The translations under genes were made by a program, and so were the position numbers. Positions 67 to 30,709 of a stretch of DNA of 30,929 nt are shown here, in pieces; within the stretch, counting starts at the first letter, position 1, and each line of letters starts with the position of its first letter. Below the pieces are notes generated by a model. That model was given only the letters and a program-made list of their open reading frames with translations. It did not search any database and was not told the origin of the DNA. This stretch comes from a virus. The stretch lies in IMG/VR virus record IMGVR_UViG_3300017917_003471, positions 1 through 30,929 of that record, one strand, 5' to 3'.

Positions 67-97
67 TTGACTTTTTGAGAAAAAAGTCTTATAAATA
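67..97 (+). promoter_or_regulatory. Hairpin overlapped by a promoter; includes T4-type late promoter
   Basis: An 8-bp stem (69-76 with 81-88) closes a GAGA tetraloop directly after tRNA-Arg. TATAAATA at 90-97 matches the T4-like late promoter. TTGACT at 67-72, partly in the stem, lies 17 nt upstream of TATAAA, so the same DNA could also serve as a sigma70-type promoter. The likely target is the small ORF at 119. Confidence 0.6.
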
Positions 98-1615: not shown

Positions 1616-1649
1616 TTGACAAACTTGCAAAAGTTTGTTACTATATAAT
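1616..1649 (+). promoter_or_regulatory. Hairpin with overlapping promoter inside the tRNA cluster
   Basis: TTGACA (1616-1621) is followed after 17 nt by TACTAT (1639-1644), with TATAAT also at 1644-1649. A perfect 8-bp hairpin ACAAACTT-GCAA-AAGTTTGT (1619-1638) sits between the boxes and uses part of the -35. The design resembles the composites at 3820, 8403 and 30451. It would restart transcription for the second half of the cluster. Confidence 0.6.
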
Positions 1650-1658
1650 AGTGATAGA

Positions 1659-1704
1659 GGTTGAGTCCCTGTTACATCCTGATGAGATGTATCACACTCA
1701 ATCC
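1659..1704 (+). ncRNA. Candidate hairpin RNA at the 5' end of a tRNA transcript
   Basis: A long imperfect stem-loop starts about ten bases downstream of the -10. TTGAGT(1661-1666) pairs with ACTCAA(1696-1701), and TACATC(1673-1678) with GATGTA(1686-1691) around a seven-base loop. Extra pairs flank a U-U mismatch and a small internal loop. There is no ORF. It ends six bases before the next tRNA. Confidence 0.4.
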
Positions 1705-1709
1705 ATCGT

Positions 1710-2907: not shown

Positions 2908-3792
2908 ATGACTTTTCAAAATATTATCGTTGCTGGCGTAGTCGCTGCGACTTCTTTCGCCGCTCCTGTGATGGCACAAGTTACTAGTGTTTCTCAATTC
3001 AAAGACGTTCAACCTACGGATTGGTCTTATCAGGCACTTTCTAATCTGGTTTCGCGTTATGGTTGTGTCGCTGGTTTTCCTGATGGTACTTTCCGTTCTG
3101 GTCAACCCGCTACTCGTGCTCAACTTGCTGCACTAACTAATGCCTGTCTTGATCGTATTAGTGAGTATCAAAGTGCTGCTGATGCTGCTCTTGCCGCTGC
3201 TCTTCGTGCTCAATTTGCTAAAGAAATTGCTGCTACTAATACTCGTGTGAGTGCTCTTGAAGTTGCTGCTGCACAAAAGGCACAAGGTGTTGGCAACTAC
3301 CTGGGTGCTGGTGTGCTTCTTAATCAGCAAGGCGTTGCTGGTAATGGTTATGGTGCTCAGCGCACTGTTTCTGGTGCTACCATTCAGGCACGTTATGCTG
3401 TGAAGAACTTCACTAATTTGAATGCTGTTTCGGTTCGTCCTTATGCCAACCTTGTTGGTACTCCTGCTGGTCAGGTTGGTGCTGGTGGTGGTGCTCTGGT
3501 TTCTTATGATTGGAGCATTTCCCGTGCTAAGTCGGGTGTGAGCCGTGCTAACATCTACACTGGTGTTGGTTATCAGATTCCTTTTGTGAATAATACCACT
3601 GCTAATTATCAGTCGGCGGTTGGCAATCGTGGACAAGTTGTGATTGCTCTTGGTCTTGAAGGTCGTCTGACCAACTCTCTGGTTGGGTTTGCTGATCTGA
3701 AGTTCCCTACTACCAATGCTGCTAATAGTTACGGTGCTACTAATGGAACTTATTCTCCTGTGTTTACCACAGGTCTTGGATTCAAGTTCTGA
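2908..3792 (+). CDS. Exported SLH-domain porin-like outer-membrane protein
   Basis: This 294-residue protein resembles cyanobacterial SLH-porins (SomA/OprB type). Residues 1-23 form a Sec signal peptide ending in VMA before Q24. An S-layer homology domain follows at about 28-84 (FKDVQPTDWSYQAL, GFPDGTFRSGQPATRAQ). An Ala-rich, probably coiled-coil segment spans about 84-122, then a Gly/Asn/Thr-rich region with alternating beta-like strands ends in KF. A terminal Phe is the typical outer-membrane barrel signature. The family uses SLH to grip the periplasmic wall polymer. It is shorter than full cyanobacterial porins (about 500 residues), so the barrel is reduced. Its DNA is visibly richer in G and C and in GCT/GGT codons than its neighbours, suggesting acquisition from a host. 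A role in altering host envelope or uptake is inference. Confidence 0.82.
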   Translation: MTFQNIIVAGVVAATSFAAPVMAQVTSVSQFKDVQPTDWSYQALSNLVSRYGCVAGFPDGTFRSGQPATRAQLAALTNACLDRISEYQSAADAALAAALRAQFAKEIAATNTRVSALEVAAAQKAQGVGNYLGAGVLLNQQGVAGNGYGAQRTVSGATIQARYAVKNFTNLNAVSVRPYANLVGTPAGQVGAGGGALVSYDWSISRAKSGVSRANIYTGVGYQIPFVNNTTANYQSAVGNRGQVVIALGLEGRLTNSLVGFADLKFPTTNAANSYGATNGTYSPVFTTGLGFKF

Positions 3793-3819: not shown

Positions 3820-3855
3820 GGGGGGTTGACAAAATCTCCCCCCTCATCTTAAAAT
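3820..3855 (+). promoter_or_regulatory. Composite terminator-like hairpin and promoter ahead of tRNA-Val
   Basis: GGGGGG(3820-3825) pairs with CCCCCC(3838-3843). TTGACA(3826-3831) occupies the loop, and TAAAAT(3850-3855) follows 18 nt later. RNA from the SLH-porin gene would fold the hairpin, while as DNA it supplies the -35 for tRNA-Val at 3865. The run of T after the stem is poor. Confidence 0.6.
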
Positions 3856-3864
3856 AAAAACATC

Positions 3865-3936
3865 GGGCGATTAGCGCAGCGGTAGCGCAGCTGCTTTACA
3901 CGCAGTTGGTCATTGGTTCGAATCCGATATTGCCCA
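3865..3936 (+). tRNA. tRNA-Val(UAC)
   Basis: The acceptor GGGCGAT pairs with ATTGCCC. The anticodon loop TTTACAC gives TAC on a CTGC/GCAG stem. The T arm is ATTGG/CCGAT with loop TTCGAAT. The structure is regular. Confidence 0.92.
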
Positions 3937-3938
3937 CT

Positions 3939-3946
3939 TATAAATA
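3939..3946 (+). promoter_or_regulatory. T4-type late promoter
   Basis: An exact TATAAATA begins three bases after tRNA-Val and 25 bases before the Dps ATG at 3964. This places Dps-family expression in the late (virion assembly) period if it works as in T4-like phages. Confidence 0.75.
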
Positions 3947-3963
3947 GTTCAAAAAGTGGTATA

Positions 3964-4401
3964 ATGGAAGTACTTTTTAAACTATTGAGTGATGCTCAGG
4001 CATCACTTTTTGTTCTATTTCAAAAAACATGGATTTATCATTGGGATGTAGTTGGACCAAATTTCCATCAACTGCATACACTTTTTGGTGAACAATATGA
4101 AACCATGTTTGAAGAGATTGACAAACTCACTGAACACATGAGATACTTAGGGATGAAACCCGTCAGTGCTCTTTCGAGAGTGATTGAAGTTTCATCTATT
4201 TCTGAGGCTGATAGTGGGATTGCAAGCATGGAAATGGTTAACCAATTGATGCAAGATAATCAAAGACTTATTGAAATGCTTTCAATTGTTTCTGAGGAAG
4301 CAGATAATCAAAAACAATATGCTACGGCAAATATTGTTCAGGAGTTTATTGAAAATCACGGTAAATTTGTTTGGATGCTTAGATCCTTTTTTGAAGAATA
4401 A
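3964..4401 (+). CDS. dps: Dps-family mini-ferritin
   Basis: A 145-residue ferritin-like protein of the Dps family, which oxidises Fe(II) with peroxide and stores iron in a dodecamer; many members also bind DNA. The diagnostic HW-x-V-x-GPNF-x-QLH-x-LF segment lies at 26-41. Spacing reproduces the Dps inter-subunit ferroxidase ligands: H26, H38, D53 and E57 (separations 12, 15 and 4). It lacks the basic N-terminal tail used by E. coli Dps for DNA binding, and is slightly short. An upstream in-frame extension would run into tRNA-Val, so ATG 3964, 18 nt after the late promoter, is preferred. Phage Dps genes are uncommon. Protection of phage DNA or capture of host iron late in infection is inference. 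Confidence 0.87.
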   Translation: MEVLFKLLSDAQASLFVLFQKTWIYHWDVVGPNFHQLHTLFGEQYETMFEEIDKLTEHMRYLGMKPVSALSRVIEVSSISEADSGIASMEMVNQLMQDNQRLIEMLSIVSEEADNQKQYATANIVQEFIENHGKFVWMLRSFFEE

Positions 4402-7554: not shown

Positions 7555-7770
7555 ATGTCCGTCACTTCTAAGTTTAAGAAAGACATCAGCACTCTTAAAT
7601 CTGCCGCCGCTGGCGAATTCTATTTGGATGTTAAAAATCCTAAACTTTGCAAAAAACTTTATCGCTACTACCAAAATGAAGGTGTAGTGTTTTCTGGTGA
7701 TCCAGTAGATGATTATGATATTCTTATTGACTGTCTAATCGAGGATCTAGAAACAGCAGAAGTTGCATGA
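7555..7770 (+). CDS. Cyanophage-type hypothetical protein (71 aa)
   Basis: The protein begins MSVTSKFKKDISTLKSAAAG and has a compact alpha/beta look: a basic N-terminus, FYLDVKNPKLCKKLYRYYQN, then an acidic C-terminal helix (DDYDILIDCLIEDLETAEVA). No catalytic motif is seen. An upstream in-frame TTG at 7534 would lie next to the -10 box, so ATG 7555 is chosen. It uses GCC/GGC codons more than the neighbours. It overlaps the following gene by ATGA. Confidence 0.75.
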   Translation: MSVTSKFKKDISTLKSAAAGEFYLDVKNPKLCKKLYRYYQNEGVVFSGDPVDDYDILIDCLIEDLETAEVA

Positions 7771-8015
7771 CAAAAGTTCTTCTAGAACGTGAAGGATATC
7801 GCTTTATTGAAGCAGGTATCCTTGAAATAAACGGTAAACCCGATTATCGTTTACAAAAACAAAATTATTATACAAAACGTTGGAATGACATTTATCTTTT
7901 TGATAATGTGTTACAGTGCTCTACTGCAATGGAGGATATTGAATATGCGAAATGGTTAGATCCAGATCGCGTTCCCTGTTATGTAAAGGATGATGAAGAC
8001 ACGGATGGTCTATAA
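7767..8015 (+). CDS. Hypothetical protein (82 aa)
   Basis: The protein begins MTKVLLEREGYRFIEAGILE. The middle is rich in Tyr, Trp and Lys (YRLQKQNYYTKRWNDIYLFD) and the tail is acidic (YVKDDEDTDGL). It is probably a small soluble beta-rich protein. Start and upstream stop overlap, indicating coupling to the 7555 gene. No family is assigned. Confidence 0.72.
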   Translation: MTKVLLEREGYRFIEAGILEINGKPDYRLQKQNYYTKRWNDIYLFDNVLQCSTAMEDIEYAKWLDPDRVPCYVKDDEDTDGL

Positions 8016-8041: not shown

Positions 8042-8269
8042 ATGTCTAAAACAAGTGTCCTGAGATATCTTGGGAACCTTTTCCTTATAATTGGTTATCA
8101 AATCATGTTATGGGGAGATTTTAAAAACGGTTTATTGTTAAAGTGTATTGGAGGTTTTCTTACAGTACCATTTGCAATTAAACTCAAACTTTGGGATGTA
8201 CTTTTCTTATGTGCATTTTTTGGTATCTCCGAAATATCAAAGTTAACCCAACTTTTCTTGGTTTCCTAA
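8042..8269 (+). CDS. Small membrane protein (75 aa)
   Basis: Three hydrophobic stretches are apparent (LGNLFLIIGYQIML, CIGGFLTVPFAIKL, DVLFLCAFFGI), so two or three membrane passes are likely. The last codons and stop lie inside a strong eight-pair hairpin (8257-8275) that begins the structured intergenic region. No family is recognised. Confidence 0.68.
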   Translation: MSKTSVLRYLGNLFLIIGYQIMLWGDFKNGLLLKCIGGFLTVPFAIKLKLWDVLFLCAFFGISEISKLTQLFLVS

Positions 8270-8402
8270 AACCAAGTGGTGGAGTCAAGTTGACCCTCTT
8301 TAGAGTTTCCAATCTCTCTTTAAAGGATTGGTGGTGCGGATGGGGTAACCCCGCCTGGTTTCTTGCCTCCAGTCAAAGGGCAAGTGGCGAGCCTGAGTTA
8401 CC
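8257..8402 (+). ncRNA. Candidate structured RNA upstream of the glycan island
   Basis: There is no credible ORF, but at least five helices: CTTGGTTT/AAACCAAG (8257-8275), CTCT/AGAG near 8296-8305, CCAATC/GATTGG around 8309-8331, GGGG/CCCC near 8343-8352 with GCGG/CCGC possible around it, and CTTGCC/GGCAAG around 8363-8385. It is richer in G and C than its surroundings and ends at a strong terminator. Its position just before an exopolysaccharide-type operon recalls the wcaG RNA motif of cyanobacteria and cyanophages, but identity is unproven. An 82-codon ORF through here is considered chance. Confidence 0.45.
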
Positions 8403-8440
8403 AAAGGTGGGTTGCATAAACCCACCTTTTTTAGTATAAT
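8403..8440 (+). terminator. Strong terminator with embedded promoter
   Basis: AAAGGTGGGTT(8403-8413) and AACCCACCTTT(8419-8429) form an 11-pair stem with a five-base loop and a run of six T. TTGCAT (8412-8417), in and beside the loop, is 17 nt from TATAAT (8435-8440). It ends the upstream RNA and can start the transcript for 8466 and the glycan island. Confidence 0.8.
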
Positions 8441-8465: not shown

Positions 8466-8627
8466 ATGACTGAACAACAACAGCATTTGAAAGAGTTAAT
8501 TGAAAAACAAAAGGATATTATTCAACAAATTGAAGGATTGAATAATGATATTATTCAAAGAAAAGAAATTCTTCTAAAACTTCAAGGAGCAATCGAATAT
8601 CTCCAACAAATTGGTGTAACTTTGTAA
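8466..8627 (+). CDS. Small coiled-coil protein (53 aa)
   Basis: MTEQQQHLKELIEKQKDIIQ and the remainder form one long amphipathic helix with Leu/Ile at heptad-like spacing (LKELIEKQKDIIQQIEGL, then LLKLQGAIEYLQQIG). It is probably an oligomeric coiled coil. It is the first gene after the composite terminator-promoter and ends four bases before the cytidylyltransferase start, so it leads the glycan transcript. The function is unknown. Confidence 0.75.
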   Translation: MTEQQQHLKELIEKQKDIIQQIEGLNNDIIQRKEILLKLQGAIEYLQQIGVTL

Positions 8628-18275: not shown

Positions 18276-18757
18276 AACTCATTGCACATCGAGGAAACAC
18301 TAATGGATCAAAACCATTAGAAGAAAATAAACCAGAATATATTGATATTGCCATCAGCAAAGGATATGATGTAGAAATTGACATTCGTTATGACACCTTT
18401 GAAAACAATTTTTATCTAGGGCATGATGAACCACAATATCTTGTAACTCCATATTGGTTAGCCCAACGTATGGAAAAATTATGGATTCATTGTAAAAATA
18501 TTGATGCACTTAATTATTTTGTATCTAAAACTGGAGGATATAATTATTTCTGGCATCAGGAAGATGATTTTACATTGACTAGTAAAAATTATATCTGGAC
18601 TTATCCTGGAAAAACATATACTCCAAATTCAGTAATGGTGATGCCAGAATGGAACATTGATATTTCAGATTTTAATGATCTTTTAGTGTACGGTTGTTAC
18701 GGTATCTGCAGTGATAATGTTGAATATATAAGAAAAAAGGAGGAAACAATCTTATGA
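18272..18757 (+). CDS. Glycerophosphodiester phosphodiesterase-like (GDPD/PI-PLC fold)
   Basis: A 161-residue protein with the GDPD opening IAHRGN-x-x-G (H6), ENKPEYIDIAIS, DVEIDIR with E35 and D37, and LGHD with H51, the usual catalytic and metal residues. It is about half the length of typical GDPD, and the later barrel strands are abbreviated. Related small GDPD-like proteins appear in capsule loci. It might release glycerol phosphate from a phosphodiester or form one on a glycan; this is inference. A very strong ribosome site AAGGAGG for the next ORF is inside its 3' end. Confidence 0.75.
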   Translation: MKLIAHRGNTNGSKPLEENKPEYIDIAISKGYDVEIDIRYDTFENNFYLGHDEPQYLVTPYWLAQRMEKLWIHCKNIDALNYFVSKTGGYNYFWHQEDDFTLTSKNYIWTYPGKTYTPNSVMVMPEWNIDISDFNDLLVYGCYGICSDNVEYIRKKEETIL

Positions 18758-28299: not shown

Positions 28300-29609
28300 A
28301 AAACGAAGTTTCATCATTTATCAAAAATTTGCAGGACAAAGGTGAAAAACTTTTTCCTTATATTTGTAATAACTATTATGAAAAAGGTAAAAGTAACATC
28401 TATTATTCTGGACCTTATTGGGATGAAAGAGAAGTCGCAGCAGCAATTACAACTCTTTTAAGTGGAAAATGGCTTCCTTCTGGAGAGGAAGTTAATAAGT
28501 TTGAGCGCCAATTTTCAAAGCAGTTTGGATTTGGTCATTCTGTGATGGTAAATTCTGGCAGTTCTGCTAATCTCGTAATGATTGCTGCTCTTAAGAAGTA
28601 TTTTGAATGGAATGATGGTGATGAAATTATTGTTTGCGTATGTGGATTTCCGACAACGATTAATCCAATTATTCAAAATAATCTCAAACCAGTTTTTGTC
28701 GATATTGACTATTCTGATCTTAATTGGGATTTGGATCAAATACAATCAAAAATCACAACAAGAACTAGAGCAGTATTTTCATCACCAGTTCTTGGAAATC
28801 CTTATGACTATGACAAACTTCTTGATATTTGTCATCGGTACAATATCAAACTTATTTCTGACAATTGCGACAGTCTTGGATCCAAGTGGCGGGATGAATA
28901 TTTGACCAAACATGCAGTTGCTGCATCTTGCTCTTTTTATCCTGCACACCATATTTCCACAATTGAAGGTGGGATGGTTTCTTCCAACATTAAAGAGATT
29001 GTAGATATTGCTCGTTCTTTTGCCTGGTGGGGTCGTGATTGTTATTGTGTAGGATCACAAAATCTTTTAGAGTGTGGTGTGTGTGGAAAAAGATTTGATT
29101 ATTGGCTTGAAGGATACAATGAAATTGTAGATCACAAATACGTTTTTGGTAATATTGGATATAATCTTAAACCAGCAGATCTTCAGGGTGCAATTGGTCA
29201 AGTTCAGTTAACTAAAACTGAGGAAATTCACCAGAAACGCCGCCATAATAAAGAACGTCTTCAAAAGATTTTCGAAACTCTTCCTTTCACCAGAGTGATT
29301 GATGAAAGACCTGAAGCAGAAACAAGTTGGTTTGGTGTACCAATTGTTTGTGAGTATGAGAAATCAAGTCTAGTCAAATGGCTTGAAAATCACAAAGTTC
29401 AAACTCGTAATTATTTTGCAGGAAATATTTTAATGCATCCTGCATATAAGCATTTGGAAGATGCTCGTAATTATCCAAATGCATGTAAAGTTCTTGACAA
29501 TGTTTTCTTCGTTGGTTGTTCTCCTGTAATTACAGATGAAATGATCGATTATATTGCAGAAGTAGTTGAAGAATATCGTATTAACCACATCCATTATCAC
29601 CCAGTATAA
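28290..29609 (+). CDS. rfbH: RfbH-like PLP-dependent 3-dehydrase (DegT/DnrJ fold)
   Basis: A 439-residue protein of the sugar aminotransferase fold, but the PLP-binding lysine is replaced by His: SFYPAHH gives H220/H221, as in CDP-4-keto-6-deoxyglucose-3-dehydrase (E1, RfbH) and ColD. C193, C251, C253 and C262 reproduce, with one extra residue in the last gap, the Cys pattern I recall for the [2Fe-2S] site of E1, and the length matches RfbH rather than the shorter ColD. It would remove the C3 hydroxyl of a 4-keto-6-deoxy sugar nucleotide. The RfbB-like enzyme at 9132 could make the substrate. No E3-type reductase partner is in the window. It overlaps the SDR gene by 10 nt. Confidence 0.87.
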   Translation: MSVENEVSSFIKNLQDKGEKLFPYICNNYYEKGKSNIYYSGPYWDEREVAAAITTLLSGKWLPSGEEVNKFERQFSKQFGFGHSVMVNSGSSANLVMIAALKKYFEWNDGDEIIVCVCGFPTTINPIIQNNLKPVFVDIDYSDLNWDLDQIQSKITTRTRAVFSSPVLGNPYDYDKLLDICHRYNIKLISDNCDSLGSKWRDEYLTKHAVAASCSFYPAHHISTIEGGMVSSNIKEIVDIARSFAWWGRDCYCVGSQNLLECGVCGKRFDYWLEGYNEIVDHKYVFGNIGYNLKPADLQGAIGQVQLTKTEEIHQKRRHNKERLQKIFETLPFTRVIDERPEAETSWFGVPIVCEYEKSSLVKWLENHKVQTRNYFAGNILMHPAYKHLEDARNYPNACKVLDNVFFVGCSPVITDEMIDYIAEVVEEYRINHIHYHPV

Positions 29610-29613
29610 AATT

Positions 29614-30444
29614 ATGGACAAAAATAAATCATTACATAAATTAAACGGACTTCCCCCAATCTATTATCTGAACCTTGATGGGCAACCAGAGAGAGCACAG
29701 TATATGGAAGAACAATTTAAGTATTGGGGAATTGAAAACTATACTCGTATTTCTGCATATGATGGCAGACAAGATGATCTAAGCGATATCTTAAAAGGAA
29801 AGTATCCTGATATGATGACTTCTGGTGAAGTGGGTTGTGTAACTTCCCATCTTAAGGCCATGAAGCAATGGTTGGAGACATCTGATTCTCCTTGTGCAAT
29901 CATGATGGAAGATGATTGCGATCTTGATACTGTCAAACATTGGCAATTTACATGGAGGGATTTTTATTCCAAAGTCCCTTATGATTATGATGTTGTCCAA
30001 CTTGCTATTATTAATCCCATTCAAATTTCTATTCGAATGCATAAGAGATTTGTGAATGATTTTTCTACTGCTTGTTATATGATTACTAGGCATCATGCAA
30101 CAAAACTTTTAGCACTTCATGAACGTGATGGGAAGTATAAGTTGGATAATGGTGTTAAACCTCGTGCTGTTGCTGATGATTTGATTTATAATTCAGGGAA
30201 TACTTTTGCAGTTCCTTTGTTCATGTATAAGATTGAATTAGGATCTTCAATTCATGGTGAACACATTGCAGCGTTTCATCAAACAAGTTATGATGGACTT
30301 TGGAATTTTTGGAGAAATACTTCAAATACTATTGAAAGTTGGGATTCTGTATTTGAGTATGATCCATATTACGGAACTCTTCCCCCCGAAACAGAGAATA
30401 TAATGAGGGAGCAGCAACAAAGTCAAGAAACCAAAACCGAATAA
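29614..30444 (+). CDS. Glycosyltransferase family 25, second copy
   Basis: A 276-residue GT25 protein. PPIYYLNLDGQPERAQYMEE is the family start, TSGEVGCVTSHLKAMKQWL the diagnostic block, and AIMMEDDCDL the metal-site EDD. The C-terminal half is a Trp- and His-rich extension ending in a Gln/Glu tail. ATG 29614 follows the upstream stop by four bases; a non-ATG start further up is not needed. It is the last gene of the glycan operon, with a strong terminator six bases after its stop. Less AT-extreme codon use than the middle of the island. Confidence 0.87.
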   Translation: MDKNKSLHKLNGLPPIYYLNLDGQPERAQYMEEQFKYWGIENYTRISAYDGRQDDLSDILKGKYPDMMTSGEVGCVTSHLKAMKQWLETSDSPCAIMMEDDCDLDTVKHWQFTWRDFYSKVPYDYDVVQLAIINPIQISIRMHKRFVNDFSTACYMITRHHATKLLALHERDGKYKLDNGVKPRAVADDLIYNSGNTFAVPLFMYKIELGSSIHGEHIAAFHQTSYDGLWNFWRNTSNTIESWDSVFEYDPYYGTLPPETENIMREQQQSQETKTE

Positions 30445-30450
30445 TTCAAT

Positions 30451-30487
30451 AAAGGGGCTTGACGCCCCTTTATTTTTGCTATATAAT
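30451..30487 (+). terminator. Strong terminator with embedded promoter
   Basis: AAAGGGGC(30451-30458) and GCCCCTTT(30464-30471) form a perfect eight-pair stem with a five-base loop, followed by ATTTTT. TTGACG(30459-30464), which spans the loop, lies 17 nt from TATAAT(30482-30487). It ends the glycan operon and starts hli. Confidence 0.87.
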
Positions 30488-30514: not shown

Positions 30515-30709
30515 ATGACTGTAACAACTAATGAGCATGGGCAACAAAATATGTTTGCCAAAGAACCCACTATGTACTATGAAAATTATGGGATGCTGAC
30601 TCCCAATCAAGTCAAGGAGCGAACCAATGGACGCTGGGCAATGGTCGGTTTTGTTGCTGGTATTATTTCTTATGTTAGCACTGGCAACTTCTTCTTCGGA
30701 ATCTTCTGA
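30515..30709 (+). CDS. hli: High-light-inducible protein
   Basis: A 64-residue one-helix chlorophyll a/b-binding-like protein. The motif ExxNGRxAMxGF is complete at 35-46, with E35, N38 and R40 as pigment or helix-dimer contacts. One membrane helix spans about 41-62. Cyanophage Hli proteins are thought to protect photosystems and keep photosynthesis going during infection. ATG 30515 lies 28 nt after the -10 box; codons upstream of it in frame would lie in the promoter. It overlaps the next gene by one base. Confidence 0.96.
   Translation: MTVTTNEHGQQNMFAKEPTMYYENYGMLTPNQVKERTNGRWAMVGFVAGIISYVSTGNFFFGIF

Follow-up and report, generated by a model that had tools for sequence, protein, structure and literature searches.

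A probable promoter-terminator cassette with its −35 box in the hairpin loop in T4-like cyanophages

We analyzed a linear virus record from IMG/VR, 30.9 kb long (30,929 nucleotides in all, hereafter the window). Judged from its proteins and tRNA array, it is a T4-like cyanophage. An SLH-domain protein gene of cyanobacterial type (2908–3792) and a ferritin-like (DNA-binding/Dps-type) gene (3913–4401) are also present. The features that concern us are collected in Table 1. Toward the right end, a glycosyltransferase gene is followed, 4 nt past its stop codon, by a hairpin (−16.3 kcal/mol, z −4.3) and then by hli. A second hairpin (−17.1 kcal/mol, z −5.4) follows a wcaG RNA, which stops 4 nt short of it. 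Both fold far better than shuffled sequence, and both show the hallmarks of intrinsic terminators, a stem rich in GC and then a T run.

Table 1. Coordinates of the features discussed in the text (positions in the window)
Position	Strand	Feature	Basis or remark
67–97	+	Conserved hairpin, then late-promoter-like TATAAATA	S-PM2 homologue
1616–1644	+	Putative promoter between tRNA genes, hairpin in spacer	Hairpin not conserved
3820–3855	+	Weak candidate, TTGACA in loop of G6/C6 hairpin, before tRNA-Val	No T run
8212–8291	+	Degenerate further wcaG-like unit	Weak match, 25.5 bits, below gathering score; unit spacing in relatives
8301–8398	+	wcaG RNA (RF01761), directly 5′ of the 8403 hairpin	97.4 bits, E 1e-17
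8403–8429	+	Terminator-like hairpin, 11-bp stem AAAGGTGGGTT/AACCCACCTTT, loop GCATA, then TTT	Fold
8412–8417	+	−35-like TTGCAT, stem top and loop	TTGACA or TTTACA there in relatives
8435–8440	+	Putative −10 TATAAT, spacer 17	Boxes read from sequence
8466–8627	+	53-aa ORF downstream of the 8403 element	With next gene: phrog_20934, phrog_7878, PF01467
8632–9129	+	Sugar-nucleotide (heptose) adenylyltransferase-like gene, after the 53-aa ORF	phrog_20934, phrog_7878, PF01467 (with the ORF)
29593–30444	+	Family 25 glycosyltransferase gene, upstream of hairpin	PF01755, phrog_2835
30448–30474	+	Terminator-like hairpin, 11-bp stem AATAAAGGGGC/GCCCCTTTATT, loop TTGAC, then TTTGC	Fold
30459–30464	+	Putative −35 TTGACG, loop plus first base of 3′ arm	TTGAC invariant in aligned relatives
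30482–30487	+	Putative −10 TATAAT, spacer 17	CTATATAAT invariant in 10-sequence alignment
30515–30709	+	hli, high-light-inducible protein gene, predicted target of the 30448 element	phrog_178, E 1e-27

A first-pass annotation had described 30451–30487 and 8403–8440 as strong terminators with a −35 box nested in or beside the loop and TATAAT 17 nt later, and at both places this description holds. In the 30459–30487 promoter, the spacer is occupied by the 3′ arm and T run of the hairpin. TTGCAT, the hexamer at 8412, is a poor −35 by Escherichia coli standards. The wcaG RNA that is capped by the 8403 element had been missed, as had the match to PeSLs, a class of composite element already described.

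Three more sites had been grouped with these as five occurrences of one module; just two (30448–30487 and 8403–8440) follow the plan in the window, and a single module for all five is ruled out by the folds, the relatives, a missing T run and a late-promoter-like site. At 3820–3855, TTGACA does lie in the loop with a spacing of 18 (to TAAAAT, counted from the box at 3826), but the T run is absent and the fold is within chance (17/200 shuffles fold as well); in three relatives, the homologous SLH-domain gene is followed at this site by an ordinary terminator. At 1616–1649, a hairpin does separate the boxes, and the spacing of 17 is correct if TTGACA is paired with TACTAT (TATAAT is 22 away), but a relative keeps the promoter-like boxes and has lost the hairpin. 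At the third site (67–97), the hairpin is conserved in S-PM2 with a compensatory change in its stem (GACTTT/AAAGTC to GAGTTT/AAACTC), but S-PM2 lacks the TTGAC that had been taken as the −35. The supposed −10 reads TATAAATA in the window and S-PM2 alike, which is the consensus of T4 late promoters (PMC1524935). It thus looks like a T4-type late promoter site, different from the nested element. Also between tRNA genes, window 1650–1707 may form a conserved pseudoknot (GTGATA...TATCAC, GGTTGAGT...ACTCAATCC), with homologues in S-CREM1, S-RIM8 and one other genome (G003) and no match in Rfam.

Within the window alone, composite elements are too few to judge an excess over chance. Promoter-like matches there are close to the shuffle level (76 vs. 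63.7 and 75 vs. 79.0), and this, with the weakness of three of the five examples, fits an origin of the overlaps by chance from AT-rich DNA and abundant terminators. Such an origin is nevertheless hardly credible, at least for the two strong examples, given the genome-wide excess, the fixed spacing and the re-pairing stems described below. Our scan covered 2.43 Mb in 14 genomes or long contigs of T4-like cyanophages; these had been picked for their names and their resemblance to the window and so are not a random sample. A case counted as nested only if its −35 began at −3 to +1 relative to the first base of the loop, with the −10 at 16–18. By this strict test, 16 of 865 terminators carry a nested promoter-like pair, compared with 2.1 predicted from other offsets (Poisson P ~1e-9), and four dinucleotide shuffles of the set gave 0, 0, 0 and 2. 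An excess over shuffled sequence, which the first-pass annotation had proposed as the check, is clear in these 14. The spacing is 17 in 15/16 nested cases versus 58/100 elsewhere. The nested cases are spread over 8 genomes (two are in S-PM2), and the other 6 gave none under the strict test; across the set, only 6/98 strong promoters are nested in terminators.

A broader pattern scan of IMG/VR constrained only the 3′ side of the element, leaving the 5′ arm free. Among the 109 distinct matches listed, 104 have a hairpin, either nested (66, where 5.1 nested stems were expected) or in a two-hairpin form, GGGNAACTGGCAAAATCCAGTTGACRCCCC...TATAAT (38; e.g., L253, L259, L263, L265 and about 30 more). 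The latter stands mostly upstream of a small conserved phrog_431 protein of unknown function. Nearly all viral contigs listed (118/120) are nearest to cyanophage genomes of the analyzed set. The same 3′-side scan of bacterial genomes yielded 5 nested cases among the 44 matches listed, and we rejected a host origin on this count. Modules with TTGAC have a spacing of 17 in 154 of the 166 distinct cases among the matches listed; the paired fraction of 1.0 in that set arises by construction and carries no evidential weight. Genes 3′ of the modules include hli, psbA, a nucleotide-sugar epimerase and a phrog_878 small protein of unknown function, and also an ssDNA-binding protein, a polymerase processivity factor and a thioredoxin-fold protein.

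Two other arrangements were seen. In the first, TATAAT is followed at once by a terminator hairpin (18 vs. 4.0 expected in the 14 genomes, P 3e-7; for example, DSL-LC03 L145, DSL-LC02 L238 and S-PM2 L134), so that the start would fall inside the 5′ arm. In the second, a GC-rich hairpin forms the 17-base spacer of a promoter-like pair (TTGAC, hairpin, TATAAT), as in RB49 (115005–115033, 117381–117409, 121708–121736 and 134521–134549), Syn9 (18628–18656) and S-T4 (71618–71646).

Conservation of the element could be followed at 80 loci recovered by a protein search for hli relatives, and most of them have it. TTGAC, TTTTT and CTATATAAT are constant, and the stems vary in sequence yet re-pair (GGGGC/GCCCC, GGGGT/ACCCC, GGGGA/TCCCC, GAGGGG/CCCCTC); the S-SM2 element even has the polarity of its stem reversed (GGAACCC/GGGTTCC). 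Some relatives have the promoter-like boxes and no hairpin. In the hli alignment, the 5′ arms can be out of register with one another by as much as 2 nt, and we therefore preferred an arm-swap test to a count of pairs in fixed columns. At hli, own arms pair in 44/52 cases versus 33 after swapping (maximum 38), an excess that is modest because most stems are G-rich and then C-rich. For the elements linked to wcaG the result is stronger: among the matches listed, the own 5′ arm pairs in 56/58 versus 13.6 after swapping. With arms that co-vary in this way and a spacing that hardly departs from 17, the earlier suggestion of a recurrent, selected composite of near-fixed geometry is well borne out.

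It could be argued that the element is kept chiefly as a recombination joint (the border of a mobile cassette), with transcription secondary. Indeed, 60% of pairwise homologies (1903/3153) end within 15 nt upstream of the hli −35, although the 3153 pairs are not independent, and a promoter that simply goes with hli would leave such a border as the upstream neighbors change. Stems of differing sequence would, moreover, be poor substrates for homologous recombination. We regard this explanation as rather unlikely.

The wcaG RNA at 8301–8398 is a clear member of its family, well above the gathering score of 42 bits. In the listed matches of an IMG/VR pattern scan for wcaG (98 distinct downstream stretches), a terminator and a −10, with a hexamer 17 upstream overlapping the loop, follow the RNA in 66; 12 have the terminator without a −10, and 20 have neither. 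The hexamers of the 66 listed elements are most often TTGCAT (36), TTTACA (13) or TTGACA (10), and likeness to TTGACA is highest at spacing 17. One could suppose that the loop is conserved for an RNA reason, such as contact with a protein or another RNA, and that the −35 likeness is incidental, and some wcaG-linked loops do read TTGACC or CTGACC without a downstream −10. Hairpins with a TTGACC loop after wcaG and no −10 downstream were noted at four loci (L497, L537, L546 and L267). We judge an RNA contact quite improbable as the main cause, since the hexamer varies while its distance to TATAAT stays at 17, the match to TTGACA peaks at that same spacing, and the polarity of the stem can flip around the hexamer.

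In these phages, wcaG forms the last part of a tandem array with cores every ~50–55 nt, two to four in most arrays. The related hairpin units of such arrays (8212–8398 in the window; L489–L608) extend beyond the Rfam model, which spans the last two only. In 78/92 of the arrays listed, the stop codon that ends the upstream ORF is no more than 35 nt before the first core; ORF 8042–8269 of the window has its stop codon inside the first wcaG-like unit. The preceding ORF (7767–8015) ends in DEDTDGL, like relatives with a stop codon in the first unit, and a further lone unit may sit near 8015. A promoter of wcaG's own just upstream is no more frequent than expected (6/98 vs. 6.2 among the matches listed). 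Downstream genes in the listed matches are mostly sugar genes (41/90 in one epimerase cluster, 10 cytidylyltransferase-like). Sorting the neighbors of the listed matches into families (19 clusters on the upstream side and 24 on the downstream side, with at most 32/95 and 41/90 members, respectively) does not favor either neighbor as the partner of wcaG.

The published view is that wcaG is a cis-regulator in 5′ UTRs (PMC2864571, PMC9964418, PMC9602691). The hairpin at 8403 might then be the switchable terminator of a wcaG riboswitch, with read-through into the sugar genes and the promoter providing a basal level. Its position directly 3′ of wcaG, the sugar genes downstream and the listing of wcaG as a riboswitch candidate (PMC2864571) speak for this. 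Against it, hli and other genes are preceded by the hairpin with no wcaG present, the arrays start at the upstream stop codon, and pairing of wcaG with the terminator arms lacks a covariation signal in the matches listed (7.50 vs. 7.40 ± 0.08 swapped), on which ground we rejected an antiterminator between the two. A riboswitch terminator therefore seems unlikely to us, though it is the most serious of the competing explanations.

With the array running from the upstream stop codon and the terminator-promoter following wcaG, the putative promoter sits between wcaG and the sugar gene, and, by sequence, the upstream transcript appears to carry wcaG at its 3′ end. We suggest, with confidence a little short of even, that cyanophage wcaG is not a 5′-leader riboswitch but the last stretch of an array of ~50-nt tandem units, which reaches from the upstream stop codon to the fused terminator-promoter. 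The array would act on the upstream 3′ end or be released as a small RNA, and the sugar genes would start from the nested promoter. Two points weigh on the other side: the sugar genes downstream are what control of that operon would lead one to expect, and transcripts that read through the terminator would again have wcaG in the leader of the downstream gene. If the suggestion is correct, wcaG lies upstream of the promoter and outside the leader of the gene it is thought to control. This can be tested by asking whether wcaG is found at the 3′ ends of upstream transcripts or in the leaders of sugar and high-light genes. We found no report linking wcaG, terminator and promoter in the literature searched; an earlier one may exist. 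At DSL-LC03 170347 (L611), the annotated start of a GDP-mannose 4,6-dehydratase is inside the wcaG RNA, 5′ of the nested promoter, and an ATG past that promoter is the likelier start.

Considering the element as a whole, we think it likely to be a nested promoter-terminator cassette of T4-like cyanophages, of the PeSL type; PeSLs are composite promoter-terminators of T4-like phages, as cited in a passage of PMC4503421. An incoming transcript from the upstream gene would fold into the hairpin and end in the T run. At the DNA level, this stretch would also serve as a host-type (sigma-70-like) promoter, with the −35 in the loop, the −10 right after the T run, and a 17-base spacer made of the hairpin 3′ arm and the T run. 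New transcripts would begin ~7 bases past the −10, beyond the hairpin, and consequently the terminator should act on incoming transcription only. A stopping polymerase would cover the new promoter, and might either block it briefly or restart there. Released polymerase can restart at a nearby promoter in vitro (37%, or 55% with added sigma) (PMC6978380). From their positions, we infer that the copy at 30448–30474 would end the glycosyltransferase transcript and divide that gene from hli, and that the other would close the wcaG array before the sugar genes. The element would allow some transcript borders to be predicted from sequence in aquatic phages of an abundant group. RNA fold and promoter would share a single stretch of DNA, and terminators that release polymerase onto a promoter would lend themselves to tests of reinitiation by recycling polymerase.

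Of the related systems, the PeSL of coliphages RB49 and phi1 is reportedly the subject of Arbiol 2010 (GBE 2:140), and the form in Vibrio phage KVP40 reportedly that of Comeau 2014 (GBE 6:1611); PeSLs are said to have been proposed as recombination joints (mobile cassette borders) that shuffle neighboring genes. Taking the class as titles and citing text describe it, the cyanophage element is a nested PeSL-type element with diverse stems: a predicted sigma-70-like promoter and a terminator-like stem-loop are combined between genes, and the combination recurs with fixed geometry in T4-like phages. The nested copies of KVP40, about 14 on one strand, resemble the cyanophage form in having TTGAC or TTGC in the stem top and loop and a −10 at 17–18 nt. 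However, the KVP40 copies are near-repeats (AGGGTTGNN...NNCAGCCCT) with TATTAT, whereas cyanophage stems are diverse and the −10 is mostly TATAAT. The RB49/phi1 element likewise ties a terminator to an early promoter at fixed distance, but RB49 has the promoter after the terminator (seven copies, −35 at +28/29 counted from the loop start), whereas the cyanophage form is nested; no nested copies were found in RB49, nor in T4 by the strict test. The passage of PMC4503421 on PeSLs reports few in one region of S-PM2; the strict test finds two nested elements in that genome. Whereas wcaG has been published as a 5′-UTR cis-regulator, here a terminator and promoter-like boxes stand between it and the downstream gene (66 of the 98 listed). 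PhotoRC-II RNA (RF01717) resembles wcaG as a cyanophage RNA motif adjoining a nested promoter (S-T4), but there it lies downstream of the promoter, in the psbA leader, which is the opposite of the arrangement at wcaG.
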